A stretch of 64,000 nucleotides of DNA. Origin: Ischnura elegans. Lineage: Eukaryota; Arthropoda; Insecta; Odonata; Coenagrionidae. The stretch's first letter is position 1. Each line of letters starts with the position of its first letter. Below the pieces are notes generated by a model. That model was given only the letters and a program-made list of their open reading frames with translations. It was not told the origin of the DNA and searched no databases. The stretch is from contig NC_060252.1 in assembly GCF_921293095.1 (NCBI RefSeq), forward strand, positions 74,420,866 through 74,484,865, given 5' to 3'. Below, piece by piece: positions 2,792 through 62,904 of the stretch. A program made the position numbers and the translations under genes.

Positions 2792-5700
2792 GCCTGCTTT
2801 CTCTCCATCGGAGACAATTGAGAAAAGAATGGGGGAAGGTACCTCATCATTGGATATTGAAGCACTTGTGAGGGATGTTCATCGCATATCACTACCAAGT
2901 AATTCATGGACCCTGGGTGTTTTGAGGAACAAACGTTTAGTATTTGCCAGCTGGAAAGTGGGCAAAGTGTTGGAGGCTGAGAAAAGATTAGTTGTGGATG
3001 AGAACTTGAGTGTTAAGGTGGGTATTATTCAAAAGGTTTATTTTCCTTTGATTTGTTCTGGTATCTTTCGTATATTGGCTGAGACTTTGAATCACGTTCA
3101 GTGGAAGATTAATATTAATGTAAATGCTCTTTGATGACTCTTCCAAATTAAATGTGACTACAGTGGACTTTGGATCTTAAAAAAATATTATAATTAATTT
3201 GCATGTTTATAGGCTAGTATGACCTTTTAAAAGTATCTTAAATCTAAAACATTTAATTTGTAGGAGTACAGGTCTATATAAGTGTTATTTTGAAGGCAAT
3301 ACTCATTGATTGTTTTATAGCTTGCTGATGTTATACTATAGTTGGTGTTCACTTTTAGGTTATTTTTGACAACATGATACTGGCCCTTGATGAGATCAGA
3401 AATGTCACCAAATTTGAAGATATCGGTCGCTATCTGTATATTATTGATAAGATGAGCATATGTAAAGGAATTGGAACTGGCAGGAGGTAAGATGAAATTG
3501 TGTACCGTTACTCGTAAAGCATGGTATTGTGTATTTCAAGAGAACTGCAATAATGACTACAATTGACCATGGTGAGTAAAGTAATAGAAGACATTGATAT
3601 TCAAGGGTTATTCTAGTACAGTACACTCCGGATTATCCGGGCTAATGATGGGGAGAGATGGCATGAATAATTAGAAAACATGGATAACTCAAACTTTCAC
3701 TTAAATGTCTTGCAATGCTCATAATTTACCTAAAACATACAATATATTATTAATTATGCAGTTATTCTGTTATAAGAGTGCTTACCTTAGAGAGCTTAGA
3801 GCTTTCTTCTCCAGTTGGCAATCCTTTTAGATCAGTGCGGTTGCGCACTGCGAGGCTTGGAAAACTGGAACACGGTGCTCCCATGAATGCAGCTAGTGCG
3901 CGATTGCTTCCATTTTACAAAGAGGATTCTAATGGAAATAATAAGCCCGGTTTATCCTAGCATTAATGCAGTAATTCCGATGATTTTGCATCCAATTTTA
4001 TTTTTTTATAAAGATCGCAGAAAAAATTGAGCGAGAGTAAAAATCGTGCACGGATAATCCGCAACCTCGATAAACTGCAGCCGGATAATCGGGAGTCTGC
4101 TGTACTTGAAAATTCAAGTTGTTTTGAGTAGTTAGTACTTGAGTCTGATCTTTTGAGTCCCATTGTGAATGTCAAGTTGAGTTTTTTAGTTACAGAGCTG
4201 TTGAGGCCAGTAGGTTCAGAATATTTCTTAAGGAGTGATATCATCAAGCTCATATAAGAATATGTATTTTTTTTAAAGTCTATAAATCGTATAATTGCCT
4301 TGGTCTGGGAGTTCCATTTTGACGTATGTAGCAGCCAACTAGAACAATAGACATGGGTGCCGAAGTAGTGGCGGTCAAACGCCTTCCGACCCAGTGGCAT
4401 ATTCAGAGTAATCGGAGTGGACGGCTGCATCACTCATTCCTTCGTATGTGACACTTTTATACCCTGCACTAATTTCTTTACTCAAACACTTAGAGAATAC
4501 ATAAAAATTGTTAAGATTTCTATGAAAAAGACATGAAACTCTTTAAAACTTTGAGTGCTGGTCGCTTATTTAAAAGCCCTACTGAAAAATGCAGCCATGT
4601 TTACTAAATTTGTACATTTTTTTTAAACATTAGCATCAAAACTATGTTTTCAAAGATGTGTACGTCAATAAAAATTAACTTTCTTCTTATTTATGGGTGA
4701 GTTGAATAAAATTAATTGCTATCTTTTAAATATATAATTTCACAATGAAAATCTACTGTTATTGAAAAGTAAAAAAGTTGCAACAATTGATGCACATCCT
4801 AAAATGTATTATAATTTTTAATTATGCTTAATTTGAACTAATTAAACCAAGGAAATCATGAAAAAGCATTGTTTTACAAAAATATCCTTTTGATTTAGGT
4901 GATTTAATTTTCCTTTGCTTGGTACACTTGAAAGCATGGGAATACAAAAAACCCACTTTACACATGCTGCACTGAAATGGGGTGTCTATCTTCATGGCTT
5001 TCCCTATCCCTTTTTTTTTCCTTTTTCAGCGCATACTTTGCACTATTTTGCACCTTTTTTCCTTCTGGAATATTTTCAAGGGTACTTTAGAATTTACTAC
5101 TTCATTCTGGAATTCATTCAAGAAAATATTTCTCTGATAATCGTGTTAATTGGAGGTCTGGATCGTGGTCACTATTGTCTCCACTACTTTCCTCTCAGTC
5201 ACGGTAAAGTTCTTCCAAAATATCTTGATCACGAATTGTACAATCTGCCATGCTGAACAAAATGATAAATACTCAATATATTCTCACAAGATGACACACC
5301 AGCACTCTGAGCGAGGAAGTACAAGTCCAGGATTGTACACAAAAATGTACACTGTGTCAACCAGGGTGGACCAGAATATGTACACGTGGGTCACCCGTGT
5401 CACACATATTTGTGCTGATGAAAGACTCAAATACGATTTCACGCACAGACAAGATTATTTGCACACAGAACAAAGAAAAAGCAAATCACACCGCTACCAC
5501 ACACTACCGTGTGTTAAAAATACTCTCCTAGGGGTCGTAATCCTAATCACGCCAGCCAAATGTTGCCTTTATTTTCAATGCTATAATGCAACCCCAAATT
5601 CGGCTTGGGGGCCGCTATTTTGAAATAGAGAATCGGACGGAGGGGGGCATAATATTGTGCTCAAATAGCATCTTCGTCATAATAGCACAGCCGCTATCTT

Positions 5701-7747
5701 TTACAGAATTGTATGAATTACATAACTAATTCATCAGAGCTAACTTTGCTGGATATATGCTGTTTAATTCTTCTTTCCATTTTTTTGTGAGATTGTCACA
5801 ATTTCCTCATCTGTTTCCGGGTGCGGCAGAGCAACCCATCCCAGCACACGGGAGTGAGTGATCATTCCAGAGACAGAAAAAAACAGCACGTGACTGGGAA
5901 ACTATTAAGGCACCTAATGGTGCATTTATTTGGTGTGTTGAGACCACAAGGGCAGTACATAGTTAAAACGAGACACACAGTAAAATACAGTCCTTCTCCC
6001 TTCAGCTCCCTCCTCCACTCTCCCTTTCAGGGTCTTGGGCCCCGCCTTATATTCGAATCCTGGCCCGAGCGGGAGCCAATGGGCACGCTCCGCCGGGCCA
6101 GGGGCAGGGGAGAAGTGAAAGGCACTGTTGTTCATGTGGGGAGGAAGGGGAAGTAGGGGAGGTGCTCAGAGGGGTTGGTTTTTTTCTCCCGAAAAACTTG
6201 CATCATCACTCGGGGCGGATAACAAACCATGCGCTGGATTCTCGCCGCCTATAAAGATGAAAGCTATTTGAACCCATTTTGGCTCTTTGAGGCCTTGCTA
6301 TTTAACTCTTTTATGGTCTCCATGTTGCCTATTTTCATAATGCATTTCAATCTTTTTCTCTCACAGATCTGCTTCCTGCCCTGGTTATTTCATACCTGGT
6401 CAAGTACGAGGTGTCGGGTCTTGCCTTTTACGTTGTGCCTATTGCCAAGGAGCATCAGAAGAATTGATGAGGATTAGGAGAATGAAGCTAGGTCGTGGAC
6501 ATGTGAGGGCAGAAGCTCAGGGCAAAGTCTGGAAAAACCTCAAGATGCTATCTGGTATGTAGTAATTTAATTCTAATGCATACTGAGTCATTACATGCCA
6601 GCTCAATCAAGCGGAAAATTTCATGTAAAAAAACCACCATTTTAAACTTCAAGGAAACTGTGGTTTTACAGGGTCATGCACAAGATCATTCAATTGGTCA
6701 TGAGTATGAACATTAATCAGAATTTAAAACAGAAATTTTGTTATATTTTCCATAATGCTCATGATTATGAGAATGAAATAAGAGCATATTCTAATGTAGC
6801 CGGAATGATTCCTGGAATGATCACATAGTGGGACTGTACAGCGTCCATCTTGTGAACTGCCAGCACATTGGAATTTTCAGATCATGTATTATGATTTTTT
6901 TTAAACACTTTTACCCCAATGCTGGCTAATATATGTAGTGTTGGCTTTGAGAGTACACAATTTGCAAATATCAACTCCCTAACGTCAGTCATTTGGTATA
7001 ACCAAATGGGATTTGTAATCAATCAAAACATAGTTTTTCTTAGCGAATGTATTAGTATTTTGTGTATTTCACTATCACTAAGCTATGAAATATAGGTAAT
7101 TAGAACTCATAAGTTTGGGATGAGAGGACCATTTCATGACAAAAAAATCTGTTTATTTGGTGTGCACAATTTGGCTAAAATAAGCAGTTCTATCATTTTG
7201 GCACAACTTTAATGCCGAAATATTGTGTAACTTCTCTAAGTCTAGGGACAAACCCCTGAATCGAGCCTATGAATGTCACAATTATTTATTTCCCCATGCA
7301 TGTATGTACAGTCAAATGATATTTGATCTCTTAAGGTGACTAATATGGGTACTTGCTTACCTTTAACAGCAATAAGTGTAATTTCCAATGAGGAGTGTTG
7401 GCAGAATTTACTTGAATTTTATTAAGCAAGTCTTATATTTCCTTTACTTGCTCTGCAAAACTTAGAAATTTTGGAAACAGAATAAATTCTGATTTAATGT
7501 TCATTTGAAAGACAGATTTCTTATTTTGTGATTGATGCTATTTAATTCATTAGTGCAGATGGTATACCAAGTTAGTGTGTGTATATATACTATAAATAGA
7601 AATCATTTATATATGTATTATGAATGAGCCGTCTAGCATAGAAGTGAGACTTGCTGATACTTTGAGAGCTGTATTTAATTCTAGTAATATTTTCTTGTAG
7701 ATCTCTACCCAGAAATGAAGAAGGGTGCGAAGACTCTTGCACTATGA
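2792..7747 (+). CDS. THAP-family tandem gene, copy A (last four exons)
   Basis: Exons by paralogy with copies B and C and by GT/AG borders: 2792-3017, 3359-3486, 6367-6554 and 7701-7747 (stop TGA 7745-7747). Each has exactly the same length as its copy B counterpart (226, 128, 188, 47), with phases conserved. They encode module 2 (LPSNSWTLGV, then FDNMILALDEI), the cysteine segment SCPGYF...CLLRCAYCQ, a basic RRMK stretch and the C-terminus LYPEMKKGAKTLAL. All exons are open. The THAP finger and module 1 would be encoded further left. Intron 7 holds a pogo MITE. Function unknown beyond family membership. Confidence 0.8.
3619..4102. mobile_element. pogo/Tigger-like MITE in copy A intron 7
   Basis: The left end reads CAGTACACTCCGGATTATCC and the right end, reverse-complemented, CAGCAGACTCCCGATTATCC. 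Both are flanked by TA (3617-3618, 4103-4104). The 484 bp interior lacks a transposase; the 156-codon minus-strand frame that starts inside it runs out past the element and is fortuitous. Confidence 0.7.
4103..6366. other. Remainder of copy A intron 7, with a GC-rich patch
   Basis: Mostly AT-rich with no recognisable coding. A GC-richer block at about 5820-6240, with purine runs and TATAAAG near 6250, differs from its surroundings and may be an old insertion. I could not find matching ends. Confidence 0.3.
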
Positions 7748-8240
7748 AGTTTAATGGATAACTTGTTGGCTAATAACATGTTAGTGAACGTGGGTATTTG
7801 TGATGATTAGTCATGTGTGGTGAAAAAGCTTGACTTGCACAAAAATCTGTCTGGCTGCTAGTGTTTGAGTGTTGTGAATGATTGGTGTTGTATATGGATG
7901 GAACATGAAATGTTCTTGTGCTAAAGAGACTGCTTACAGACTGCTGGAGACACATCTGAGATAGCTTAATTTGCTATGGAAGGACACTGATATTGTGAAA
8001 TTTATTTTCATAATGCTATGTATTTATTAATGGAAGTTTAAAATGGCAGAGAGCTCTACTAGCATTCCCTTTGTTTCTGCAGTATTCCATTCATCAATGG
8101 GTATGATTGACAGGAAGATGATTTTGTAATGGATGATTGGACTTCTAAGTCATACTTAGTATTATGTAAATGTTTATAGAAAATTTAAGACGTAAATATT
8201 TTTGAATGAAAAGATGAAAAACAGGCATACATATGTACAA

Positions 8241-8246
8241 AATACA
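8241..8246 (+). promoter_or_regulatory. Possible variant poly(A) signal of copy A
   Basis: AATACA lies about 500 bp after the stop, in the position where copy B has AATAAA (43664-43669). The surrounding 3' flanks align. Whether it is used cannot be told from sequence. Confidence 0.25.
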
Positions 8247-12453: not shown

Positions 12454-15400
12454 ATGAGTGTTGTCCATCAGCACCGCAGGTGTTATGTACCAGGATGCAG
12501 AAGTGGTTTAGACAAAGACCGTGCCGACAGAAAGAAGAAGGGTTTAAGGATTCCTAGTTTGCATGCTGCTCCAAAGGTAAAGCAACTGTCATATCAAATA
12601 TGTGCATGAAACTAAATATGGTCTTCTTGTGTAGGAACAGTCTTCACTAGCGAAGAGCCCTAGCATCCAAATACAGTGCAACGATCGTATGATCGTACTC
12701 TAGTATGTATCAGGCGTAAAGGTGGGTTTACTCTGAGTAACATGTTAAAATATAAAAAATTTGCATATAACATATTTTGCGAAAATTTTACAAATCCGTG
12801 TTACATTTAACATTGTGTTATAAAACAAAATTTTGGTTTCCCGCACGGAGCGGAAAACCAAAATTTGTGTGGCACATACTTTTGTTCTATAACACAGTGT
12901 AACATGTTACACGGATTTGTAACTTTTCGTACAAAATGTTTATATAATATGTTACTCAGTGTAAACGCAGCTTAACTGTTATTATAAAGTAAATGAATGA
13001 GAAAGTGTCATATGGAGAAAGTCCTGATTGCGACTCTTTGCATCGGCGGTTCCGGGGGGGAGGGGGGGGGGGGCACGTGCCCCCCCAGACCCTCAAAATT
13101 ATGCAAGATTTTTAATTCGGTCCCATTATCATTGCGTTCGTTTTGTATTACGAGATATCCTTGTGCCCCCCCCCCCCCCAGAACAAAATCCTGGATACGG
13201 CCTTGCTTGTGCCCCCCCAGAAAGAAATTCTGGATCCGCCCCCTGACTCTTTGAGTAGCAATCGATAGTGTGTTAATTTAATTATTTGGAGAATTGTTAC
13301 ACGTATTTGGTTTACGGATACATTTCTCCTCATAATGTCGAAATCTGTTGATAATTTATAGTAATTGATTATTAATTGACGAGGTATGCTGCTGTTGCCG
13401 AGCCTGGGGGAGCATTCATCAATGTATTGATGTGCCTTTCATTCGCATACTGTAAGATTTTATTTATACATCTGCATTCGACGAGCCACCCGTAGGACGA
13501 AAGCAACAGGGCATATATTTCTCCCCAATGCTACCAAAATTATGTGTTCAATTATGTTGCGAGGGTTATTTGTCACCGGGGCATGCCCCATTCGTTCTGC
13601 TACTTATGGCTATATTTGGGTCAATATTAAATTTTATCACAAACTTAGTAAATGCTGAAAAAGCTGCTTGAGTATCAAATACCTTACCCTGCCACTGAAA
13701 TTAAATATTTAACAACCTTCAGACAGTAATGATCATCCTAACTTTTGTAGTAGAATTGTAGAGCTGATTAAATTATTTTGCCAATGTTATTATTCTTACC
13801 TTACTGAGCTTTGCAGTATTAACTGTCATCAGTTCATTGTTGTTTAAGCCCATTTTATGAGGGTGCCATTGGGTAAATCTGACAGTGCCGGATTTACCCA
13901 AAGTTACACTTTAGGCATCTCTCCATTGAGCACCCCTTCTCACTTGAGCCTCCTCCCCTCCCCGTTTTCTATGATACGACATAGCCACTTGCATGAAGTA
14001 AGGTTCGGAAAAAAAGAATAAACAGATATATGGCTGACAGCATAAGTTTATGCTTGGATTTTTATGCAGGGAAGTAATAGACAATTCAATGTAAAAAAGA
14101 TAGCTCAGAGTAAAACTTTATGAAACAGTTTAACTCTTACGCATCTTAAACACTTTATGAATACCCTTTACAAAAATAATGTCTAGCTTTAATTCATGCT
14201 ACAAAAAAGAAGAGTAACTTCAAAAATAGAAATATTACGCACTGCTGTAACTGAATGAACTGCGGTATTACGAAACATAGTATGTATAAATGAACTAATT
14301 TTAAAACACATGAAGAGCAGTGGTACGAACTAAATTTTCAATATAGCTTATTAAAACAACTTGTCTGTTTCCACACTATTTTATTTTTACCGACCATGGT
14401 TTTGGCAGCTTGTGCCATTGTCAAGGTGCCAAAACCATGGTCGGTAAAAATAAAATAGTGTGGAAACAGACAATTGTTTTAATAAGCTAGATATATATGA
14501 AAGATTTCCACCGCATCACGCCGGACACTGTATCTTTTATTTAAATTTTCAAGTGAACAAAGCCTCTAAAATACATATTCGGCCAACTGCATATCATCCT
14601 GCAACATCTTCTAGAAAAATTAAAGTGCAGATCAAAAATATAAATGAAGACAACGAGACCTGACCCAAGTACAACGAGAACTTCTTCAAAAGTTTCCTTC
14701 TTGTCTTCTTTTCGGCAAATTCATTAATTATGGCATCGCAGTTCAAGTTCTGCTATAATGCTAATTTAGCACAATTAAAGCCATAGTACAGAGGGCACCT
14801 GGAGGCAGATGGTACCCACATATGATAAGCCTGCTGATGGCGGTGCACCTTGAGGCACCTCCACTACAGATCATTGCCTGTTGCATAACAGAAGGTGCCC
14901 CTTGGACTGCGACGCCCCTAGGCACGTGCCTATTTTGCCTTACGGTATATACAGCCCTGATCCCATGTATGTTCTGACAGTATACTCCTTATGAGGTCTT
15001 TCGAGGGAAAATTAGCCTACTTCTCTGACTCAGTCATCACACTTTCCAATAATTATGTTCACCTTATTAATACCTTTTTTTTAAGTTAGCTTGACCTGTT
15101 ATCACTCGAATATGTTTGCTCTCAGTTAATTCATTAGTTATGCATACTGAAAGGTGTTGAATTTATTCATAGCCCTTCTAAATGGAAGCTGTTCTTTCAT
15201 CATGTTGCTTCACTCTATCAAGTAGTTCCTTGACCGTGTCAGCAAGAGGCTCTTCGAAAGATGTCTCCGTGCCAGGTTTTAAGGGTGAGGAATCACACTG
15301 AGAAGCATGTAGTCAAGATGTAAATGAACCGCACACCCAGGTATTCTGCAGGTCATCCAGAACTTGCACATCCCTATCGGACAGAGCAACCTTACAATGA

Positions 15401-18400: not shown

Positions 18401-21400
18401 TTTACATTTGCACATAATATGAGAAAACGAGAAAATACAGCTTAATAAATCTTAGCAAAATACAACACGAAAACCCAGTCGCCAGAAACATGTTAACAAG
18501 TACGCATTTAATATCGTGTGTCATCTTTTTCTTCACTTTTTCGAAGCGTTCATTGCCAACACTGAAAAATTTCAATGCATGATCGAGACTTTAGGAGCTT
18601 AAGTTCCACTTTATAAAGTGAGATCCTTGGGACGACTCTGCATCGAACTTTAGCTAAAGTCTCACTTTACCGTAAAGAGAGACTTTGTAAAGTGAGCAAT
18701 TTCAGTGTCGTCTATGAATCGCACCCTAAGGTCTCGTTGAGTCTCAGCCAGGCCTAAACACCTGCGACCATGCTATCTTAGCGGTCATTTCCCTTCCCTT
18801 ATGTCGGCTATAGCTGACATTCGTTTGTTTGTGTTGAAAAATTCATGTCAGCTATTACCGATCTTAGGTCTTTGTTTGTGAAAATGCTTATCAGATACAA
18901 GTAGTATATGCAAAGGATGTATCATTCATGATAGAAAAGTTCCATCACATCTCACCTGAAACATCTACTTTAGTTTTGTAGATTTCCTGTTGCAATGAAT
19001 ATGTTATTAGAAGCAATGCGCATAATTATAATTTAAGTCTATCTAGCTATGTTTTTGTAGTGTATCTGCATTCCTCTGTAGTTTCTATGTTTGTTTGTAA
19101 CCTTGCCTTTTCATGCTATGCTATGGTCTAAATAATGTATTTAAGTATGAAGGCCTATTTACACGGTACATTAACACGTACGGGTTAATGTATAAATGTA
19201 TGAACGCGAGAATGAACGCCAAAATGCACCGTGTAACCACCCAACTTGTGCGAATGCATGCACAGAAAATAGAACCTGTTCTAATTTGGTTCATGCATTC
19301 GTACATGTTCCGTTCTGGTCCACAAAAATCATTCACGCAAACGTACATTAACTCGTACTTGTTAATGTATCGTGTAAATAGGCCTTAAGAGTTATTTTCA
19401 TTATCAGCGGGTGATGTTTGGAGGATAGTTGTAATTTTGTTTGGTACATTGAGGCATACATGGGGTTGCATGTAATTTGAGGCCTGAAGTTCAGTTATTT
19501 TTAAATTTAGTTTCTCATGTAGCTTTTCATTTGCAGGACCCCGAACGCCTGGCCCTCTGGAGTCAAATCATTTGTCGGACAGATCGTCCTTTAAGAAGCA
19601 AGGACTCTGTGTGTGACCTACATTTTAAGGAAGATGAAATTGTGAGGTATAATGAAATTCGTGGTCTTCCTGGTGGTGAGATTCTTAGAATTGAAAGATG
19701 CAGTACTGCCCTGAAGAAGGATGCTGTTCCCTCAATTTTTCCACCTCCGGATGCATATAAAACAAGGAAAACGAGGGGCTGTCCGACTGTAAAACCATCA
19801 GCATCCCCCAACCCTGATGAATGTATTAGCATCGATTCTGAGGATGATTTTGCTGCAAGTGTGGTTATTCCCGAGGTCTTTGATTTTCAAGTGCTCATGA
19901 AAGAAGCCCTTAATATTGTACTCCCATCGGACATGTGGACTGTTGGTGTCCTGAAAGGGAATCAAGTGATATTTGCCAATTGGAGTGATGGTGAAACCGT
20001 TGAAGCAAAGAAAAGGGTTTTGATAGATGATGAATTGCAAGTTAAGGTCAGTTGTGGGTCATGGAACTATTTTTTGTTTTATTTTTCTACAAATGATGGA
20101 GATTAATGCAGTATTCTTTCATACAGATATTTTTTGGGAATATTAATGCTACATTGAAGAACATGAAGGAAGTTCACAGCCTTGCAGAAGTTGGAGCTTT
20201 TCTGATTGTGATTGACCAGTTAAATATCTGTCAAAGTTCCAGGTGGGGCTTACTCATTTTTACTCAGGTTGATATTTAGAAGCGTATGGCACATAGCCAA
20301 TTAAAATAGACCAACCTAAGAAACGGTTTTGGAGATAATAATTCATATTTTGACTAGCTTTTAGAAATACACTAAATTTCATTGCAGCCATTTAGCAGTT
20401 CTGCACAATTTTGTTCTTCATGGATTGTATGCTATGTGCATTGCATTTAGCTAGTTTTTGTTCATAGTTCTTTCTTTTTAGATCCCCCAAGTGCTTGGGA
20501 TATTCCCTTCCAAGAGGCAATGCTGTGAAAGAAACTTCAGTGGAACAATGTCACAATTGCCAAAAAGCAGAGGAAGAATCATTTACGCTGGATAGGGAAG
20601 AGGAAAAGGTTGGCAACATTGGATTACAGAAAAGGATATTAAGAAAACCATCTGAGTCAGGCAAACTCTCTGACCAGTTGCACAAGAAGGTATTTTCATT
20701 AGAGATGTGCGAATAGTATCCGCGAATACTCGAATACCTCGAATAATAGAAAGTATTCGATATTCGAGATCTCGAATAGTTATGCCAAAGGTACCGTCTC
20801 GAATACCTCGAATACTATGAATTTCGCGTCATACACTATCGCTCGCACGTCGTTGGTAGTTGACTCGGAAAAATGAGAACTCTAGTCGTCTAGTGCATGC
20901 AGCGCCGTTTTAAGCAAGCTGACGAAATTCATCAAATTCACGGGTTCGAGCGGTGAAAAGAGTTCGACGTGGGGAACCGAAATTGATCGGATGAAAAAAA
21001 TCCGAAATTCCCAGGTGTCCCTTATCAGGAGAACCTCAGTTCCGTGGGATAGCAACATTGGCGCATTTCCCACGATCCACTATCCCCATCCATTCAGCGT
21101 TCGCCCCATCCCCTCAATCGATTTCCTCTTCCCCGAAAACAAAAAAAGGTCCCGGCTCGTGCAGGGATCGTATTACGAAGACCTCAGCTTTGAAAAAAAT
21201 ATCAAGTTACCGGAAAATAATAGAATCTTGTTTCACCCTTCCCTCTTTCTCCCCACTGACCATTTTCCCGCATCCATCTTTTGATAAAATGAGAGGAGGT
21301 GTTTGCCGTGTGTCCTTTGTGGCTAATAATGACAGGCACTTATTTTGAATCTTCCCCAGGAGATGAAACTACCATAGGGAGGAACTCAGTGCCGTGGGAT

Positions 21401-27400: not shown

Positions 27401-30400
27401 TTCCCCCTCTTTACTGATACTGCTCTTCACAATTCTTTTGTAAGGATTAGTATTATCGAGTTTCTTCAGGTCAATAACACTAAAATGTATGTGCAAACTT
27501 GTTTTGTGATTTGACAAAATGAGAGTAGTAGAAAATTATTTTTATTGCTCTTCTAAGTATGTAATGTTTATACAGTATATAGTAGTTGCACAGCTACAGG
27601 TCACACTCTGCTCTGGTGTTAAACGAGTTTTGCCCTGATGTTTGTGACTTATTGGTGGGTCTCACTTCTGGCTACACCCCATGTTTAGTAAACCCATGTT
27701 GAGCACCAAGTTTTAAGTCTCTAGCTCTTCATTTTATGGCACTTGCAATCTCGCAAACACTGTGACCCACTGGTGGGTCATGGTGTGGAGAGCGTGTTAA
27801 ATAAACCTAATTAGGTCTTCTAATTTAAAAATGGGATTAGCTGAACTTTCCAAAAACTACCTTGCCGGCAGAAGCCCTTTTGTAGTGAAATAAAGTACAT
27901 CAACACAAGTGCATAGCTGGTACTTTGTAGATATGATATAATCTCGCTGAAATTGATGCCCTTTTGTAGTGAAATAAAGTACATGAACATAAATGCATAG
28001 CTGGTGCTTCGTAGATATGATATAATCTCGCTGAAATTGATGAATTGTGGGCTAAACATTCCATGAATTGAGTCACATTTCTAATTAAAAATAAAAACTA
28101 TTTTATTCAAATGTTAGATAAGTGATAATAGGGTTTTATGTCATCCATTAGACCGCGGTAATTTTCTTGGCAGCTGTGCTCTGATTTTTTGAGTAGTGTA
28201 CTTAAAAATAGTATTCATTATTATTTTTCCAACATAAATTTTTCAAGAAGAGCATGGGAAATGTAAGGTAATGGAACAATAAAACAATGTATGCATATTA
28301 AAGGCTATACATATTGGCTATCTTTAAACTATCCCATTGTGTTTTAATTTTCCATTCTTTTGTAAACTGCAGCCTTTATCTGGACCTATTTTCACAACTC
28401 TTCTGGTCTTTCATTTTGAAAAAGTGGTTGAGTTATTTTCTTCTACTCAACTGAACTGGTTTACACATCGCTAGTTGTCAAATTAATGAAGACTGCAGTT
28501 GCTTAAAATTGAACTACCATACACATGTATGTATAACGTAGTTATCTACATGTATATGTACCTTAGAAGAGAAAGCAGAAGAGTTAAGGTGCATGCGAAA
28601 CAATTAGTTCTATGCATGATAAAATTTTTGTTAATGTGATTTACGATTGATTGGGGTACAAGTCATTTAATAGAATTTTTTTTCCAATCTGCCTCATTTT
28701 TTCAAAAATAACTAATAATTGATTTGCTGCATCAATATACCATTTGATTCATATGCTGATGAGTGTTATTAGTTAATCAACTGTGAGTGATGTTGTCTGC
28801 TCTTTTTGATGGAGTTGATAATTATGCTTCAATACCAAAGAGTTGAATTCATGTGGCATAAGGTTCCTCATTTTTTTGATTTCTTGAGATATGGATAATG
28901 GGGCTTTTGAAAATTGTGTTAGTTTAAGTGTTGAAGGTCATTTGAAGTGTTGCTTGTCACAAGGCCATTTAATTTGCCTATGATCCTTGCTAATGGTTTG
29001 TTTCTTACTCATTTTGAGTAGAAGAGCAAGGTATTTCCAGAAAAAGGAGTGTATCCTGAAGGGAAGCATTGTCCAGAGGGAGCAAATATAAGTGTATGTG
29101 ACGAGTCATGTGCTGTGGACAATATTGAAATGGAATTGGGGGAGGAGGTTGAGATTGAAGAGTGGGCTCCACCTCCTGAGTGGCGCTCCCTGGCCACGCC
29201 CTTGCGCCTCCTCAGTCCCCCTCCTGAGGACTTTGTCAGGTGTGTATGTGTACTTACAATGGGAGACCACGCACAGTGAGTCCTCGTTCTACGTCACCCC
29301 GTTTAACGTCATTTCGCGATAACGTCACGAAAATTTTGAGATCGTCATTAGTTTATTGCACCTTCGCTTTGCGATAACGTCAAGTCTTTTAAACTTCGCC
29401 CGAGAAAAAACGCGAAGCGGCGGGCGTTGCTGGTTGTTCGTTTTGTGGGCGGTAATACAGTCAGTCTAAACGAAGTGTAAAACGGTGTGATTATTATTAA
29501 TTGCGATTACGGTTTTAGCAAATTTTCTGCAAAATGAATTCTTAGGTAGGTGCGTAAGGTTTTACTTGACATAATGGTTTTCAGGAAACTTAAAAGTGAT
29601 CTCAAGGAATTTTTCCATGTAGAACTCGGAGTTTTTGTCGCCACTTTTTTTGCTGTGTTCACAATAATTTTGGTTCCTGTAAGTGCGACGATGTTTCAGC
29701 AATGATGATTCCCAGGCGACGCTTGCCCGGGCGACCAACCATAGCGAAGCCGAAAAGCAAATAAGGGAAGATACAAAAATGGAGAAGGATTTACGTCACT
29801 GCTGCTATTGTCGTCGATGAAGACAGGAACTCGTATTTATGCCGTCGTTTGGCATTCCCATCGTAAAAAATGCCCCAGATATGATACACTAAAAATTTTT
29901 TCGCATAGGAATTGTGAGGTCCAGGAGCCGATATTCACTTTTTACATCGTTTCTTATGGGATATTATGTTTCGATTAACGTCATTTCGTTTATCATCACA
30001 TTTTTCAGGAACGGTAAGTGACGTTAAACGAGGACTCACTGAACCTTGCTCCGCCTTTTTCAATGCCGTATTTTTTATGGGATTCGGAATGGTGAACACA
30101 TCTCTGAACTGGTAGTGGTTCCATTGACTGAGCCTTAGTTTGGCTGTGATTAATTAATTTTCATGCGGTATTTTTAACAGGCCATATATAATTTCAAAAT
30201 ATCACCACGCACCATAGACGGGTCAGTTGGGGTATTGGTAGCGTGGGTGCCTCTCACCTACTGTCGGCGTCAAAATGATGTGCCGCTGTACTTTGAAAAT
30301 TTATGTCTGCACTTCAGTGCATGCTATAATTATATATAATATGTCATTTTACAGGAAATTTTATTCTCAATTCTTATTTATTTTTCGTTCTATGAAGAAT

Positions 30401-52089: not shown

Positions 52090-55000
52090 ATGAGAGAATA
52101 CAAGAACCGCAGATGTTTTGTACCAGGATGCAGAAGTGGTTTAGCAACAGACCGTGCCGAAAAAAAGAAGAATGGTGTGAAGAATCCTAGCTTGCTAAGT
52201 GCTCCAAAGGTAAAGCAATAGTCACGTCAAGCATATGCATGAAAATAAATATTTGGTTTTCCCGTGTATAGTAACGGTCTTCACATGCGAAGAGCCGTCG
52301 CGCATCCAAATATTGTGCATGAAGAGTCTGTATGGGGTGTATCTGTTACTATAAAGTAAATGAATGAGAAAGTATCATCTGGTGAAAGTCCTGATGATGA
52401 CTCTTTCAGTTACTCACGACTGTTTGTTTTTATAAATCTTTAGAAAATTGCTATACGTATTTCATTCATGGATTATGCCTAATTATGTCGATATCAATTT
52501 GTACTAATTGAGTTGCCCGACGTATTCCCATGAGGTTTATTGAATGTTTTAGAGCCTGGTGGAGCATTATACAATATTTTGATGTACCTATTTTGATTCG
52601 CATGCTATGAGGCAAATATCTGTGTATGCATCGAACACGATATCCCGCGAGCCACCTCGAGGGTGTAAGTTGTAGGGCGGGTGTATCCCACCAATATGCC
52701 CATAGCAATGCAACCAAAATGATATGTGCAATTTTAATTCAGGGGTTAGTTGTCTCTTACGCATGCATTGGAGCCCATTTTAAATTTCATCACAAACTTA
52801 GGATACACTGAAAAAACTATTAGCATATCAAATTATGTATTTCACCCTGAAACTTAAATGAAATATTCATCAACCTTCGGGTAATGGTGATCATCCTATC
52901 TTTTGAGGAGAATTTTAACGCTTATTTAATTATCTTGCCTTATTATGCCTTAGTGAGCTTTGTAGCATGCACTAGCTCATCGTTGGTGAAGTTCAGTGAA
53001 GCTTATCTTATGAGGATCCCATATGGGGACCATATATCCCATGTATATGGGGACAGCATACTCCAAATGAGATATTATTATAATAAATTATTCCATTTCT
53101 CTGACTTCCCAATAATTTGTTGTAAATACCTTCTTAGCAAAACATTTGACCTATCACTTTAATGTCACCTAAATTTATCACTTTAATGTGCTTGCTCCCA
53201 GCAAACCCATCAGTTTTTTTTTTAACTTCAAGGTGTGGGATTAATTCCAAGCCTTTCAACAATTAAATGTATCTGTAATGTATGTAACCATCCTGGTATG
53301 CTGTGAAGAGATATAGTGACAGGCAGTGAGCCACCATAATGAGTTATGTACCTTCCTTCACTATAGATTTCCTCATGAATAAATGATCCTTTGCAGATTT
53401 TAAGTAAATGCTTTATGGAATACACGGCACACACAACAATTTATGTGTTGAACTTGAAAATGATGTGTGACTGTCAATGATGGCAAGATTCCTCTACATC
53501 TTGCTCAAAAAATCTTGTTTTGTTTTGTGGTTTTCCTGTTGCAATGAACATATTATAAGAGGCAATGCACATAATTGCAATGAAAGTCTAATTACCTTTA
53601 TTTTTCTCGTACCTGCATTCCTCAGTTTGTCCGTAACCATGTCTTTTTCGCACTACCCTTATGTCTAAAGGTTTATCCGAGTAATTTTTACTATCGATAG
53701 GTGATATTCAGAGAATAATTGTAATTTTTTGTACATTGAGGCATGCACTATTGAATTTAGTTTCTCATGTAACTTTTCATTAACAGGATCCCAAGCTTCT
53801 GGCCATCTGGGAAAAGGTCATAGGTAGAACAGATCGTCCTTTAACCAGCAAGGATGTTGTCTGTGAACTGCATTTTAAGGATGAAGAGATATCGAGATAC
53901 CGTGAGATTCGTGGTCTTCCTGGTGGTGCAGTTTATAGAATTGAAAGGTACGGCAATGTACTTAAGAAGGATGCTGTTCCATCAATTTTTCCACCACCGG
54001 GTTCCTGTAAATCAAGGAAAAAGAGGGGTCGACCACCTAGGAAAACATCAGCGTACCCTGACCGGAGAGAGTGTAGTATCAGTAATGAAGAGGATTCTGT
54101 TGAGGAGTGTCTGCCTGAAAAACCATCAACTTCCCCCAACCCTGTTGAATGTGTTAAAAGTGAATCAGAGGATTGCATTGAGGATCGTCTGACTGAAAAA
54201 CCATCAGAATCCCCTAACCCTGAGGAGTGTGCAATCAGTGATGTAGAGGATTGTGCAGCAAGCATGGTTATGGCTGAAGTATTTGATTTTCAAGTGCTCA
54301 GGAAAGCAGCCCATAATATTGTACTTCCTTCTGTCATGTGGACTGCTGGTGTAGTGAATGGGAATCAAGTGGTATTTGCCAATTGGAGTGATGGTGAAAC
54401 CTTTGAAGCACAGAAAAGGGTTTTGATAGATGATGAATTGCAAGTCAAGGTCAGTTGTTGATCATAGAACTACAATTTTTTTTATTTTTCTATAAATGAT
54501 GGGCACTAATGCAATATTTTTTCCTGCAGATATTTTTTGGGAACATTAATGCTTCATTAAACAACATGAAAGAAGTTCACAGTCTTTCAGAAGTTGGAGC
54601 TTATCTGATTGTGATTGACAAGTTAAATATTTGTCCAAGTTCCAGGTGAGTTTTACTCTCTTGAACCTGTGTTGTTTTCCATGTGCATTGTTTTTAGGTA
54701 GTTTTTGTCAATTGTACTTTCTTTTTAGATCCCCCAAGTGCATGGGATATACCATTCCTAAAGACATCGCTAAGAAAGAAACTTCAGCTGATCAATGTCG
54801 CAATTGCCAAAAAGTAGAGAAAGATTTACTTTCGCTGAATAATGGAGAGGAAGAAGTTGGCAGAGTTGAATTACAGAACACGATATTAGGAAAACAGCAT
54901 GAGACACATCAACTTGCTGACCATTTGCACATGAAGGTAAAAGGGCAAGTTGTTTGTTGAATGCTTTAATGCAAGACAGTATATATTCTTTGTGAACGTA

Positions 55001-58000
55001 AGGTTAAACAGATTTACTAATCTTTACTTGATACGTACAACATGATTACTTGGAGGCTACTCCATACTGTATTAGTGGAGTTCTTGGTTGGTTGGAGTGC
55101 CTACTTCTGGTGTGCTAATTGATGAAGTAAAATATTTGTGATTGTGTCATATAAGCATAAAAGTGTCAACATAGTACATTCAGTAACAGATTAAGTCAAT
55201 CACTTTATGAGTTTTAGCTTTTTGAATTGTAGGCATGTGAGGAAATTCAGCTTATCTTCATTGCACCTCCTCATTTTTATAATTTTTTGAGGTATAGTCT
55301 ATGTCTTGTGAAAATTGTCTATGTGTAGAGGTGGTGTTGAAGGCCTGTTGTAGTGTTGCTTGTTCAACTGCCAACTAATGGGCCAATGATGGTTAGTAAT
55401 GGTTGGTTTCTAATTAATTTTATGAAGAAGAGAAATGTATCCGTGGATAAAGTTGTTTCTCCGGAAGGGAAGCCTTCTCCAGAGGCCACACCCAAGAGGA
55501 GCGTACATGATGAGTCATGTGCTGTGGACAATTGTGATATGGAATTGGTGAAGGAGGTTGGCGTCGAAGAGTTGACTCCACATCCCAAATGTTGCTCGCT
55601 GACCACACCCCTGCGCCTCCTCAGTCCCACTCTTGAGGACTTATTAAGGTGTGAATAAACATTTAGTTGATGTTAACTTGAAGGTGAATTCTATTTTGGT
55701 TTTTTTACTATACCTTAAATAATTATCCAGATTTGAATAACAATATCTCAAAGACGTCTCAGTCACTATGAAAGCAAAGTGCATCAAATACTGCTCATTC
55801 TTTTGTATTCAACTACAGCTAACTAACTACCGTATTTCTCCGAATATAGTCCCCCTCTGAATATAGTCCCCCCCTCCCTAATTTTGAGGCTTCATTTTCT
55901 GGAAAAGTTAAAAAAATGCGTTCGAATATAGTCCCCCCCTTTACTTTTACCACAGGCATTTTTGGAAAAAAAGGGGGGGGACTATATTTAGACATATACG
56001 GTATTTTGTTTTTAGCTGCAATTTCATTGCGTTATCAGAAACAGAATTTAATCTGAATTTTCTGATTGCCATGTTGATTCTTGGTACATATTTGGTATGG
56101 CCTAGTAGCAACAAAATTGATATTACAGTTTCCTCTCCCCATGCTACGGCTTAAGGCTTTAGTAAAAGTGTTTCATGTTGTTACACTAATCAGTATTTTA
56201 GTTATTGTTGGAAATGGAGGCATCATTTAATATTTATTTTGGATTTTAAGCATGCTGAGCTGCTAGGAGCTATCAAAAGAATAGAGGGAAGAGGGCTTAG
56301 TCTTGCCTAGTCTGAGGCTTGTCGTCCACTGCAAGCATTTGAAAACCACTTAAAACTCTGTGCTTGAGTTAGAAGGGCTTGGAAGTAGTGGCTTGAGAGG
56401 TCGTTTTTAAGTGTGTTCATTCTTAAATTTTTGTATCTGCCTTGGGGAAAAATTGATAAAATCTGGTACATATGCACCCCTGCGGATGGTAAGGGAAAGA
56501 CACAACCATCGAAGAGTGTCAACTTCATTGGAGAGGCCACCAAATGCTTGAGGTTATTCATTTTCACCCCCAGGAGGAATTTGATGTTTTCCCGATGATA
56601 GGTATTTTCCGAGTTAAAGACCATTGTGAAGTCACTAGATTCCTTGAACATGTATTAGATATTATTTCTGCTCAGAACAATGAATAATTTCTAAGGTTTC
56701 CATAGAGAATTTGAGGTGAAATGGTGATACCTCTGCATTTACCTGCTTTTTAAGCGTAAGCACACTTTTTATCTTTTACCTCTGTAAGTTGCCATGAGCA
56801 AGTGGTTATTCTGCTTTACATCAATGCTTGCAGTGGGAGACTCCTCGAGAGCCATTGGATGAACCCTTGACTGGGCACCCCCTCTCCTCCTCTTTTTTTT
56901 ACCTGGCTCCTAGCTTTTCAGGGAATTCTAAACACAAAATAAATGGTAAATGATGTCCAATTATTAACAAATTTTGTGAAGAAATCATTGTTGAAAGGAT
57001 AGTGAAGAATTCTAGAGCAAGAAGATGGTCTACGTACATGTTGGTTTTGTTGGGTACACATTGGAAAAAAATGAGTTTTTACTTTTGCATTAATTGCTGA
57101 ATTATTTATAAGTTAAGATATAAGAATTCATTTTCAATTAAATTCTCAATTCAATCTTCAATTCATTTTGACTTACAGTATTTTATGATAGAAATTTTGA
57201 AAAAAATGTTTCCAAAAGTTCTTTTCATGATGAACACACTGGTTTTTTCAATTATTCTGATATCTTTTGAAATAGCTTGGAAATTAATCTTTATGCACAC
57301 TGCGTTTTTCATCAAAATTTGCCCTGCCACCTTTTTATAAATGGCTGCCAAAAAAAACGTATGGCTTCTAAATTTTTTTTCAAATGGTGTTTCGCGATTG
57401 TCTACTTGTAGGTAACCAATCATAAAAAAATCAGGATAATTAAAAATGTAGAGCAACAAATTTTATTTATATTGGGTAATTTGAAATGGAATGACACTAA
57501 TTCCTCTTAAAACACAGCTTTTATTTATTTTGGTCATTATTCTCTGTCAACAAGTACGTATATCCTTATGAATTTTTAGGTTTTATGTTTGTAGTCATTT
57601 TTCTTTCACCAAGTGGTTATTTCCTTATATATAGATGCCATATTGGTGTATTTAGTTACTTTTCGTCATTCAATAAACAGTTATTCTTCAATATCATTGT
57701 TGATTTTGTTCAGTATCGTGTAATAATTCATTTATCGCATTAAGTCAATGTATTGTTAGTTCACATTAATACCGACAGAGGTAGTGGCTTCATGTTTCTT
57801 TTAAAGCTCCACAGATAGCTCTTATGTTGTAGCGGGAGGTTTTACCCAGAAAAATGGCAAATTTTTCCACCAAATTACCCAAATTTTACCACTTAAATTT
57901 TTAGATAGTTATCCTGTTTACACACACGTTTGCCATCTTTTACCATAATTTTGTGTGTGTAAAATAATGGTAAAAATGGGGTAATCTATCTTTCGTGCTG

Positions 58001-61000
58001 ACTGGGAAGACAGCAATGAATTCACACATTATACAATATGTTGTACGAATTCAACTGTTGAGGCCTTCACTTTGTAGAATTCCATATTTAATGTTTGGAA
58101 AGGAAATTGCTTAGCTTTTCTACAAAACACACACTTTATTGCCGACTAGTTTCGGTTACACTGTACCATTATCAAGACTAGTGATACACATCAGAATTTG
58201 CCGGTATATATACTCTGTGGTCGGGTGATTGGAGGGGAAGGGGAGGGGGGAGAGGTAAGTGACGGGGAAGGTGAAGGAGGGAAGAGATAGGGAGAAAAAC
58301 CAGAGGTAGTTACAAAGTAGAGCGTGGGTTGGCGTCACAAGGATTTTTTGGGGTGTAATAGTGGAATGTCTAGAAGGGGGGAGTGGAAAGGGAAAAGGTG
58401 GTCATTAGCAATGGGTTCTTTCCTCTTTACAATTTTTAAAATTTCCAACTGTTCTCTGATGTCCAGCTGTGTTCCTTTTTTGACTCGGTGAAGCAATTCC
58501 GGGGTAAAATCCGCTTGGTGGCCTTCCTCCCGAAGATGGGTAGCGAATTGGGACATCCCAGTGTTGTTGTAGTAATCGCGCCGGTGTTCCTCCGCTCGTA
58601 CGGTCAGACTTCTTCCTGTTTGTCCTATGTATTTGGAGTCACAATCACCACACCTTAATTGGTAGACCCCGCTCTTGAGGGCTGAATCAGTGGGGTCCTT
58701 GACTGAAGGTAGCATGCTCTTCAGGTTAGAATTATTGTAAAAGGCCGGTTTTATGTTGATTACTTTGAGTAATTTTTCCAATTTAATAGAAGGTTGGCCT
58801 AAATATTTTATGCGTCGCCATGACAGTCATGGCGACGCATAAAATATTTAGGCCAACCTTCTATTAAATTGGAAAAATTACTCAAAGTAATCAACATAAA
58901 ACCGGCCTTTTACAATAATTCTAACCTGAAGAGCATGCTACCTTCAGTCAAGGACCCCACTGATTCAGCCCTCAAGAGCGGGGTCTACCAATTAAGGTGT
59001 GGTGATTGTGACTCCAAATACATAGGACAAACAGGAAGAAGTCTGACCGTACGAGCGGAGGAACACCGGCGCGATTACTACAACAACACTGGGATGTCCC
59101 AATTCGCTACCCATCTTCGGGAGGAAGGCCACCAAGCGGATTTTACCCCGGAATTGCTTCACCGAGTCAAAAAAGGAACACAGCTGGACATCAGAGAACA
59201 GTTGGAAATTTTAAAAATTGTAAAGAGGAAAGAACCCATTGCTAATGACCACCTTTTCCCTTTCCACTCCCCCCTTCTAGACATTCCACTATTACACCCC
59301 CAAAAATCCTTGTGACGCCAACCCACGCTCTACTTTGTAACTACCTCTGGTTTTTCTCCCTATCTCTTCCCTCCTTCACCTTCCCCGTCACTTACCTCTC
59401 CCCCCTCCCCTTCCCCTCCAATCACCCGACCACAGAGTATATATACCGGCAAATTCTGATGTGTATCACTAGTCTTGATAATGGTACAGTGTAACCGAAA
59501 CTAGTCGGCAATAAAGTGTGTGTTTTGTAGAAAAGCTAAGCAATTTCCTTTCCAAACATTTAATATGTTGTACGTAATATATCATATTTGACTCTTTACT
59601 CTGCGGGGTCAAAAATTGGGCATTATTTCATTCTTAACACATAAGCATTACATTTTTTTTTCAAGTACAGAATTTATGGTTCTTTTTATTTTTTCCTAGG
59701 AGCGACTATTTTTTTCTTAGATGTGGGCTCTAAACTTGAGTCACATCAATTTTTAAACGTATAGTCAATCTTCTTTTTGAATTGTTAAGATTCAATGAAT
59801 GACTCCTTGTTTTCAACAGGGTCACTTTGTCTCCATCTGAGACAATTGAGAAGAAAATGGGGGAAGGTACCTCATCATTGAACATTGAGACACTTGTGAA
59901 AGATGTTCGTCGCATATCACTACCAAGTGATTCATGGACGCTGGGTGTTTTGAAAGGCAAGCGTTTAATATTTGTCAAGTGGAAAGCAGACGATGTGTTG
60001 GTTGCTGATAAGAGATTAGTTGTGGATGAGGAGTTGAGTATCAAGGTGGGTTTAACTCAAAATTTGTTTTCATTCAAGTTGCCTTGGTATTAATTTTTGA
60101 TAATTTGTAAAATGGTGTAGCTCTGAGGTCTGACTATTATCTTGATTTTGTGTTTTCTTCTTTCTTTTTTATTTACATAGAGGTTTGAATTGGTTGGTTT
60201 CTCTAGCCATTGTAAGTTTCTCTTGAGGCTATGCCTACTCTAGTGCATTATCGTTTGATTATGTAGTAACTAAGGATGAGTCAGTTCTTACATTTTTTTG
60301 GTTCTCGGTACCAGTCTGGTTATCCCCCATCGGTTCATGCTTCTCGATACATGGTCCCAAGGATGAACTCTTATTATCTGAATTAATGGCTAATTTAAAT
60401 GAACAACCACAAGAAGTGAATGAAAATGATTTCACTAAACATGTAAACAAGCAAGAAACTCCTGAGAAAAAAAACTGAAGCTCGTCTCCATAATTTCATT
60501 TGCCTAGTAAAAAAGTTCAAACAACACTTTGTTGAAGAATGCATGATCAACCAATATGTTACATTACATCAGGTTTTGTTTTGAAAAATTCAATATTTTT
60601 ACCATATCTGGGCCTAATCTGTTCTTTTTTTGATAGAAATATGCCCTGCAGTGCTGAACAGACATTCCCTGAGACGAAGTTTTTTTTGAAGGGCCACGGG
60701 AAATATGCTTAGTTTCCATGCTCCATAATAGGTAGCATAGCATCAGGATCAATGGTGAAACTCCTTCAACTTCTGACGACATCATCCGTTAATTTGTTGT
60801 AACTTGAGAGTTGGTTCAAAATATATTCTATATTCTGCAATGTAGCTTAAATTCTCAATTTAATTGTCAATGTATTCGTATGCCTGTCACAGTTCTTATG
60901 GCATCAACACTAAACTGCTCAATACCCTGGTACAGCGGCACCCCTGCTAAACTGAGAGGCCATCTTAGCTGTGTTTCGGGAAGTCCGAAAAACCGACGAA

Positions 61001-62904
61001 CCGTTTAATGCGCATGTTATTGAGCAACTCTTAAAAAAATTGGATGCCATTAGTTTCAATCGAAGTAACTATAAGGACCACCAATTTTTAGAGCTTTCAT
61101 GCGTTGAAATATCTATTCAAAATTTTCATGAGGTAATTGTCATCTGATGATCTTGATGACCGAAAAAAAACATGCAGCGATTGCTGAAGCGAAGAGGAAC
61201 ACTTTCCAATGTTAATGAAAAAATATTTTGACCCTTTCGTGTTTGCATAGCTCAGAGTTGTCAAAGCGACTCATTAGGCAGTTGAAATTTAGTATGGGTC
61301 AACCGCCGCGGCCTGTGGTGAAACTCAGTCACCACCATGGCGGCCAACCACTGCAAAGTAGGGTGGTCCTTATTTTTGAAGTTTTTGAATTTCTTTTGGG
61401 ACGCCCCCCAGTTTTGTTCCATTGGCGATAAACAGTGATTAATATAGTATTCAAGATTATATTGACGAAGTTTAAAGTTCATCTACAGAATTTTATGGTT
61501 TTAAGATGGGTGAGAACGATCAACACATTTTGAGAGTATGCAACCCGCGTGGCACCCAAAGTGTTGGCTGGGGTGGTGCGCCCTTACTCTCAGTGCAATA
61601 TCCTGGGAACCAATGGGCAGAAATGAAAGATATTTGAGGTGATACAATATAAATGTCTAACTAGTCGTTTTAGAAGACAGAAAAGTGATAGAATAATCCA
61701 AGAGTGACATTATCTTAAGTTATGCCCGAAAAACACCCAAAAAACACAAAATTTCTAAACTTTGAGTGCGATGCGGCACGTTTTCGCGGCATACGATTGC
61801 AAAAATAATTTACACGATATATTTTCTCACCAAACGGAACAAAACTGGGTGGTGTCCCAAAAGCAAATCGAAAACTTCAAAAATAAAGACCACCCTACTG
61901 CACAGGTTTCGGCTCCACCAGTTAGGTCACTCTGGTGCACGCGGATGCACTGAATACTAGTTTTATTTAGCCACGCACCACAGTTGCTCAGGTGCGTGGC
62001 GGCCTTTATTGCCATCTGATGACATCGTTACATTGCAACGATTGCAACAACAAAAAGTAGATTGAATATTTAAAAGAGTTGTGAAGAATTGCCTATAATA
62101 CTCTCTTAAGGCCGTTTTACACGGGGCACGCAATTGCGCAGTTGGAGCTGTATTAATTTCTTAAATGGCACGGAATTGCGAATGCATGAACGAAATTAGA
62201 ACAGGGGCTATTTTGCCATCTCGCATCCACGCATTCTTGCATGTGTTCTAGCAATTCACTGCTTTACACGACGCAATTTTGACTGCGCCTTCGCTCGTAC
62301 GTCAGATTGCACAATTCCGTGTACCATGTAAAACAGCCTTTACAATTCGGTATTTTAAGCTATGAATGAAAACTAAAAGAATCTGGCACAAGACACTATC
62401 CGTGGCCTTGAATCTGCTGCAGGCCATTTCGGCTTTAGGCACCAAATTCAAATCCTTGCAACTGTCAGGAGCTAGTTCCATAGTGCGGCCTTTATGTGAT
62501 CGGTTCTTGCTACCGGTTCCATGGGCTTAGAACGGATAATACCAAAAACCAGGTACAGGAACTGTCCCATCTCTGGTAGTAACTCACTTGAAGCATTTTT
62601 ATCGTATTTATCTGAATATATTTACCTGAGTATAATGAATTTTATGACATAAATATGAAATATGTAAATAGCATGAGCTTATATCCAAATGTTATTTGAA
62701 AAAAAAATTTGAAGCAGTTATCATTTATTTTTAAAATCTTGCTGCTTTCATTTTACATTGGGTCTTCTTTTTATAGGTTATTTTTGGCAACATGATACTG
62801 GACCTAGGTGAGAGCAGATATGTCACCAAATTTGAAGATATTCGTCGTTTTCTCTATATTATTGATAAGATGAGCAAATGTAATGGAATTGAAACTGGTA
62901 GGAG
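52090..62904 (+). CDS. THAP zinc-finger protein with duplicated module, copy C (first seven exons)
   Basis: Exons: 52090-52209, 53787-54449, 54530-54645, 54729-54936, 55428-55648, 59820-60045, 62777-62904; the remaining two are beyond the window. All are open, in phase and GT/AG-bounded. THAP finger: CFVPGC, then VCELHF and AVPSIFPP. Exon 2 is 153 nt longer than in copy B: after the finger it has an AT-hook-like KKRGRPPRK (RGCP in copy B) and repeated units around EKPSTSPNPVEC and EKPSESPNPEEC where copy B has one. Module 1 and CxGY...CRNCQ are kept. In module 2, exon 7 has changes at otherwise constant places (GESRYVTKFEDIRRF), which may show relaxed constraint. Confidence 0.85.
55830..56001. 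mobile_element. Tc/pogo-like MITE in copy C intron 5
   Basis: Ends CCGTATTTCTCCGAATATAG and, reverse-complemented, CCGTATATGTCTAAATATAG, TA on both sides. GAATATAGTCCCCC occurs three times directly and once inverted. Confidence 0.65.
56002..58034. other. Copy C intron 5, unassigned
   Basis: The longest frame is a minus-strand ORF of 114 codons (56307-56651) that I do not recognise. The rest is AT-rich. Confidence 0.35.
58335..58781 (-). CDS. PLE GIY-YIG endonuclease fragment, left arm
   Basis: 148 codons from a methionine near the arm centre. Motifs: GVYQLRCGDCDSKYIGQTGR (GIY/YIG strands with the PLE CxxC), RAEEHRRDY, SQFATHLREEGH and REQLEILK. PLE proteins join an RT to this domain; here only the endonuclease part remains, so the true protein start is lost. 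Ends LLHPKKSL. Confidence 0.8.
   Translation of the reverse strand: MEKLLKVINIKPAFYNNSNLKSMLPSVKDPTDSALKSGVYQLRCGDCDSKYIGQTGRSLTVRAEEHRRDYYNNTGMSQFATHLREEGHQADFTPELLHRVKKGTQLDIREQLEILKIVKRKEPIANDHLFPFHSPLLDIPLLHPKKSL
58869..59315 (+). CDS. PLE GIY-YIG endonuclease fragment, right arm
   Basis: Mirror copy of the left-arm frame, identical apart from one residue (LLHPQKSL instead of LLHPKKSL). Same truncation. The open frame and near identity indicate a recent insertion or recent homogenisation of the arms. Confidence 0.8.
   Translation: MEKLLKVINIKPAFYNNSNLKSMLPSVKDPTDSALKSGVYQLRCGDCDSKYIGQTGRSLTVRAEEHRRDYYNNTGMSQFATHLREEGHQADFTPELLHRVKKGTQLDIREQLEILKIVKRKEPIANDHLFPFHSPLLDIPLLHPQKSL
59468..59506 (+). 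ncRNA. Hammerhead-ribozyme-like motif at a PLE 3' end
   Basis: Order: ACTAGT, CTTGATAA, a loop-forming TGGTACAGTGTAACC, GAAA, CTAGTC. Hammerhead cores read CUGAUGA...GAAA and end in a GUC-type cleavage site; PLE termini are known to carry minimal hammerheads. Here the first core box is degenerate, so activity is doubtful. The same motif is mirrored on the minus strand at 58144-58182. Confidence 0.4.
61359..61897. mobile_element. hAT-type MITE nested in the intron 6 element
   Basis: About 75 bp inverted ends starting TAGGGTGGTC, flanked by CTGCAAAG (61351-61358) and CTGCACAG (61898-61905), an 8 bp duplication with one change. The overlapping ORFs reflect the symmetry. Confidence 0.75.
62109..62339. 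mobile_element. Harbinger-like MITE nested in the intron 6 element
   Basis: Ends AGGCCGTTTTACACGG and, reverse-complemented, AGGCTGTTTTACATGG, with TTA on both sides (62106-62108, 62340-62342). Subterminal GCAATT/AATTGC repeats. Confidence 0.75.

Follow-up and report, generated by a model that had tools for sequence, protein, structure and literature searches.

A tandem THAP-finger gene family of Ischnura elegans with a doubled module, probably derived from a P-element-like transposase

The subject of this analysis is a stretch of 64,000 nucleotides from the damselfly Ischnura elegans (contig NC_060252.1, C7 in the following; C7:74,420,866-74,484,865), called the window; coordinates given without a contig name are window positions. 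It carries part of a tandem gene family whose proteins join an N-terminal THAP finger to two copies of a unit consisting of a module of about 95 residues and a subsequent pattern of the C4 zinc type. The family is probably a set of host genes that descend from a P-element-like transposase, kept its N-terminal half without the catalytic part, doubled the module-finger unit and remained under purifying selection. Most likely, to judge from the sequences, a jumping gene was turned into a resident family of putatively DNA-binding proteins. A domesticated, locally expanding P-like family had been suggested in a preliminary description of the window, and this suggestion is supported by five open copies with ratios of nonsynonymous to synonymous substitution (dN/dS) below 1, by transposons of the same genome with the same domain order and introns, and by the lack of a catalytic part near the genes.

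The gene family and its doubled module

Copy B, for which a fully open frame of 587 residues had been claimed, was rebuilt exactly: it is a plus-strand gene of nine exons (12454-43184), the 1764 joined nucleotides of which encode 587 residues followed by a single terminal stop, and 8/8 introns are of the GT-AG type. The other copies were located exon by exon by tblastn with the copy B exon peptides in a 139-kb array region and in a 50-kb region around copy E. Four copies (A-D) lie in tandem in an array that extends beyond the window, and a fifth (E) lies 29 Mb away. Copy A was recovered with exons 2-9, exons 2-5 lying upstream of the window and only exons 6-9 inside it; all nine exons of copy C were found, exons 1-7 in the window (52090-62904) and exons 8-9 downstream of it. 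The three neighbouring nine-exon paralogs reported earlier are right as far as they go; a fourth tandem copy (D) and the remote copy E have to be added, and the full nine-exon set is seen for B, C, and D only.

The encoded proteins are 587 (B), 638 (C), and 567 (D) residues long, and 571 (A) and 551 (E) without exon 1. Frames are open in 5/5 copies (551-638 codons), pairwise protein identities amount to 56-84% (10 pairs), and splice sites (GT-AG) and phases match across the five copies, one acceptor of D excepted. The THAP family signature comprises C2CH zinc ligands and an AVPxIF box. The corresponding features (CxVPGC, CxxHF, and A[VI]PSIF) are present in B, C, and D, and their exon 2 part alone is seen in A and E; the exon 2 part of copy B matched the Pfam family PF05485 (E 1.7e-7). 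The motif [DE]HxY of HCF-1-binding THAP proteins occurs in 0/5 copies, A and E being considered without exon 1. A KKKR stretch at the join of exons 4 and 5, which we take to resemble a nuclear localisation signal, is present in A and E and absent from B, C, and D.

The copies evolve under purifying selection. Over the whole protein, dN/dS (Nei-Gojobori) was 0.37-0.53 in 10/10 pairs at a synonymous divergence (dS) of 0.16-0.75, and nonsynonymous changes were fewer than synonymous ones with p values from 4e-4 (A-E) to 7e-17 (A-D; Fisher test on changed versus unchanged sites). By segment, values of 0.27-0.91 were obtained for the THAP part, 0.24-0.49 for module 1, 0.31-0.66 for module 2, and 0.11-0.36 for finger 2 with its tail.

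Module 1 and module 2 are homologous (hhalign 99.9%, E 2e-31, five rows versus five rows), and 22 columns, four cysteines among them, are invariant over the ten modules. The cysteine pattern was found in 10/10 modules as C-x7 (module 1) or C-x11 (module 2) followed by -C-x(G/V)Y-...-CxxC, and is read as a predicted C4 zinc site. Two homologous modules, each followed by CxGY and a CxxC pair, had been recognised in the preliminary description, and both this and the statement that they match no named domain were confirmed. No credible match was obtained in Pfam (best DUF3587, E 0.016 in 2/10 rows, 13.8 of 25 bits in one row), in NCBIfam (best E 0.69), or among PDB sequences (best E 0.67; 1.3 with a single module), and the assignment of the module to a known domain was dropped. 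Pattern matches in viral contigs (94) and in prokaryote contigs (75) yielded 0 confirmed relatives in either set.

Relatives of the module among the transposons of the genome

Whole-genome searches covered 1,722,721,009 bases in 110 contigs. THAP-bearing elements are abundant (2278 candidates, 150 of them scored); four have frames of 924-931 codons, and the three of these that were scanned with Pfam are intronless P-like transposases. A dispersed transposon family was found via a diverged THAP element upstream of copy E. A comparison of 3-kb loci showed its copies on C11, C17, and C19 (the C11 family) to be 96-99% alike along most of their length (L042/L043 over 1.5 kb only) and to share their left end to within a base; the flanks differ among loci L039, L040, L041, and L042, and are shared by L042 and L043, both on C17. 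The C11 copy is composed, in this order, of a THAP exon, an exon with the THAP remainder and the first module half, the second module half, a finger exon (CAGY...CLHC), a helix-turn-helix (HTH)-like part, and RNase H. The N-terminal RNase H part was matched by Pfam (PF21787, E 1.2e-25), and the P-element HTH (PF12017, 21.9 of 23 bits) and the C-terminal RNase H part (PF21789, 22.7 of 24 bits) scored just under the cut-off. A run of near-identical units of about 277 bp follows the last C11 coding exon (L058 with L040, joined, about 6400-8700); the right end of the transposon was not reached or not recognised. A further copy of this family, 90-95% alike and broken up by other sequence, is located at C7:103209691-103215912 (minus), upstream of copy E.

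A second transposon family, on C14, carries THAP (Pfam) and the module, and THAP-like sequence together with the module was read by eye at four further loci. The C14 module as the query gave 42 matches from 35 candidates, with the first module half at 31 dispersed places. Consequently, the earlier wording of an undescribed module of this gene family holds as regards the missing name in the libraries searched and fails as regards the gene family, since transposons carry the module too. C14 (an 18.8 Mb contig) hosts 8 of the 31 first-half places, 7 of these being 83-95% identical to the query, which was itself taken from C14. With the C11 finger exon, 30 matches were obtained at E values up to 10, the weakest being perhaps due to chance; by our own count, a downstream finger match on the same strand and at most 4.4 kb away (start to start) is present at 17 of the 31 module places. 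The order THAP-module-finger is apparently widespread in this genome, the C11 copy being the only one that was read through to the transposase.

Host and transposon modules were compared as profiles. A probability of 98.2% and a score of 82.7 resulted from hhalign with four transposon rows (best of 100 column shuffles 19.7, reversed 12.1), and 98.7% and 94.6 with nine transposon rows (best of 200 shuffles 23.7); in blastp with only four sequences to compare with, the best host-transposon pair reached 32% identity across 134 residues (E 1e-15). The introns agree as well: each of the two host modules, like the modules of the C11 and C14 families, is interrupted at corresponding places in phase 0 after a lysine and in phase 2 immediately ahead of the finger, and the host genes have a further phase-0 intron, within the THAP finger, in common with the C11 family. 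Among five transposon sequences compared, the THAP fingers of B, C, and D score best against the C11 family (43-48% identity). In the module tree all ten host modules group together (100/99), and this clade is split into module 1 (94/86) and module 2 (95/96), and the unit was therefore doubled before the array grew.

The intronless P-like transposases were compared in the same manner. A first test (hhalign) failed, the linker obtaining 0.3% and another stretch 3.5%. With the profile containing four transposon rows the linker ranks first at only 4%, and with the nine-row profile it reaches 36% (E 4e-4), non-overlapping windows staying at or below 0.3%. Module homology extending to these transposases is suggested by the latter value and is not counted as proved.

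An active P-element-like transposase has an RNase H domain, whereas none was found near the host genes: four peptides of the C11 transposon, one from the HTH, two from RNase H, and one from the C-terminal part, gave 0/4 matches in the 139-kb array and 50-kb E regions (tblastn, E 0.01), and only the THAP part of the three intronless P-like transposases has a match in the array region. L039 shares a stretch of 260 bp with a copy B intron, and L051 shares about 265 and about 310 bp with the D locus; these are taken for separate repeats. If the copies were not genes but transposon copies that are decaying or non-autonomous and were multiplied by local duplication, this would account for the copy number, the repeats all around, the transposon copy close to E, and the failure to find exon 1 near A and E. 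Against this stand the 5/5 long open frames with dN/dS below 1 and the linker exon and last exon common to 5/5 copies; moreover, the first 3.1 kb of the C11 locus gave no blastn match (E 1e-5) in the 139-kb array. We regard this explanation as unlikely.

The following observations weigh against host genes of transposon origin. Single-sequence queries with the host modules retrieved no transposon from the whole genome, only the array, copy E, and matches at chance level (E 1.9 and 2.2), and the reverse search with a transposon query reached the host modules only at E 5-10. Because single-sequence genome searches failed to link the two groups, their homology rests on profile comparison and introns. 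In the 12 kb read for the C11 transposon, neither terminal inverted repeats nor a target-site duplication could be found. No exon 1 was found for A or E in the array and E regions; THAP-type first exons with phase-0 donors (two upstream of A, one upstream of E, the latter besides that of a transposon copy) could not be assigned. The exon 6 acceptor of D is CG, not AG, at the homologous position; an AG six bases downstream, read by eye, keeps the frame. Values of dN/dS above 1 were obtained for linker 1 in 3/10 pairs and for finger 1 in 2/10, each with few sites. Finally, the direction from transposon to gene is not proved by the tree, which is unrooted (its root being the midpoint only) and in which long branches are flagged by the program.

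The last point leaves room for the reverse exchange, in which transposons captured the THAP-module-finger part from a host gene, and separate clades of host and transposon modules in an unrooted tree agree with it. The module is, however, carried by several transposon-like families that differ widely and perhaps, at a weak level (hhalign 36%), by the intronless P-like transposases as well, whereas there are only a few host copies and these look derived, their module being doubled and no catalytic part having been found. Capture by transposons is thus considered very improbable, and domestication of a transposase remains the preferred explanation.

Coordinates of the exons and repeats within the window

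The exons in the window and the positions of copies D and E are collated in Table 1.

Table 1. Exons of copies A, B, and C in the window and locations of copies D and E.
Feature	Position	Strand	Content
Copy A exon 6	2792..3017	+	module 2 first half
Copy A exon 7	3359..3486	+	module 2 second half
Copy A exon 8	6367..6554	+	finger 2
Copy A exon 9	7701..7747	+	end and stop
Copy B exon 1	12454..12576	+	start codon and THAP finger first half (CYVPGC); donor GTAAAG; same exon in C and D
Copy B exon 2	19537..20046	+	THAP remainder (CDLHF, AVPSIF), linker, module 1 first half from about 19876
Copy B exon 3	20127..20242	+	module 1 second half; preceding intron phase 0, placed as in the transposons
Copy B exon 4	20482..20689	+	finger 1 (CxGY...CxxC) and tail
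Copy B exon 5	29022..29239	+	linker joining both units, acidic/proline-rich; present in 5/5 copies
Copy B exon 6	33066..33291	+	module 2 first half from about 33121
Copy B exon 7	34192..34319	+	module 2 second half
Copy B exon 8	35835..36022	+	finger 2 (CPGY...CxxC) and basic tail
Copy B exon 9	43138..43184	+	final codons and stop; counterpart exon in A, C, D, and E
Copy C exon 1	52090..52209	+	THAP start
Copy C exon 2	53787..54449	+	THAP remainder, linker, module 1 first half; PF05485 above cut-off
Copy C exon 3	54530..54645	+	module 1 second half
Copy C exon 4	54729..54936	+	finger 1
Copy C exon 5	55428..55648	+	linker
Copy C exon 6	59820..60045	+	module 2 first half
Copy C exon 7	62777..62904	+	module 2 second half
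Copy D	C7 about 74,493,300-74,511,800		in tandem with A-C; all nine exons found
Copy E	C7 about 103,180,400-103,203,900	minus	exons 2-9 found

Repeats of three kinds were noted in the window. A perfect palindrome at 58083-59567 consists of 742-nt arms that are 100% complementary and 1 nt apart; it is either a genuine fold-back or perhaps an artefact of the assembly. An open frame is present in each arm, for which Pfam gave no match at 1e-3 (one arm scanned) and which by eye resembles the GIY-YIG endonuclease of Penelope-like elements. A fold-back element with arms 95-97% complementary is located at 30257-31362. Remains of non-long-terminal-repeat reverse transcriptases (RVT_1, Exo_endo_phos_2) lie in introns of copy B at 23084-25164 (minus), 25075-25845 (plus), and 37590-39804 (minus).

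Comparison with known systems and possible role

The P homologues of Drosophila guanche (Miller et al. 1992), which are reportedly arranged in tandem, truncated, and immobile, resemble the present genes in being tandem P-derived sequences; we know of no module-C4 unit or internal duplication in them. The P-element transposase and THAP9 share the N-terminal THAP finger with the host genes, and the C11 transposon, which shares the module, has the N-terminal RNase H part. In the available parts of the sources, the P/THAP9 architecture is given as THAP, dimerization zipper, HTH, RNase H with a GTP-binding insertion, and C-terminal domain; no module-C4 unit is mentioned there between THAP and zipper, and the roughly 100 residues in this place in zebrafish THAP9 are called disordered (PMC10983969, PMC7776569). 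Both tandem P homologues and domesticated P-like transposases are already known from the parts available of PMC8616336 and PMC10027918, the latter describing lineage-specific expansions of THAP transcription factors, in which transposon-derived THAP genes multiplied within a single lineage. Its main text contains 0 mentions of Odonata, damselfly, or Ischnura, and the parts available describe no such module. No description of this domain or gene family was found in the literature searched, which comprised open-licence papers only; the domain appears to be unnamed, and the genes have probably received an automatic annotation without a name.

The following course of events is the most probable one. 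The N-terminal half of a P-like transposase would have been domesticated with its THAP finger, module, C4 finger, and transposon introns kept; the module-finger unit would then have been doubled and the gene expanded in tandem. The protein would enter the nucleus and bind specific DNA via the THAP finger, the two module-C4 units might pair with themselves or with partners or give a second DNA contact, and without the catalytic part the protein would be a binder only. DNA binding, expression, and function of the host proteins are what we infer from their sequences.

A dedicated repressor family, in which truncated transposases occupy the ends of P-like transposons and block the transposase as the 66-kDa and KP proteins do, is possible though not probable. 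Repression of related transposons is a real option because the 66-kDa protein, a truncated P transposase with the THAP finger retained, binds to P DNA and acts as a repressor of transposition, according to the available part of PMC7776569. The best THAP scores against a resident transposon family, the copy of that family upstream of gene E, and the tandem P homologues of Drosophila guanche as a precedent (a title cited in the part available of PMC8616336) point the same way. The 66-kDa and KP repressors are truncated transposases like the host proteins, but are encoded by the P elements themselves, whereas the host family is multi-copy and diverged, with the module present twice and with linker and last exons that are peculiar to it. 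Moreover, shared target sites are doubtful at a THAP identity of only 43-48% to the best transposon family, and because of this low identity a wider role as a resident regulator of transcription or chromatin is at least as likely as, and in our view somewhat more likely than, that of a repressor dedicated to the parent transposon. A bolder proposal, which we hold to be doubtful, is that module and C4 finger form an unnamed domain of a large intron-bearing P-like lineage, serving as a second recognition unit (for DNA or a partner) beside THAP and doubled in damselfly genes that would read, and perhaps police, P-like transposons.

Because the genes and related transposons coexist in one genome, a repressor and a regulator can be told apart directly by comparing the binding sites of the genes with those of the transposons. 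The family contributes an example from insects of a P-like transposase that became a gene family, and one whose transposon relatives can be compared with it within a single genome. It also draws attention to a domain, located between THAP and the catalytic part, that is unnamed in the libraries searched and lacking in the P/THAP9 architectures as described in the source parts available.

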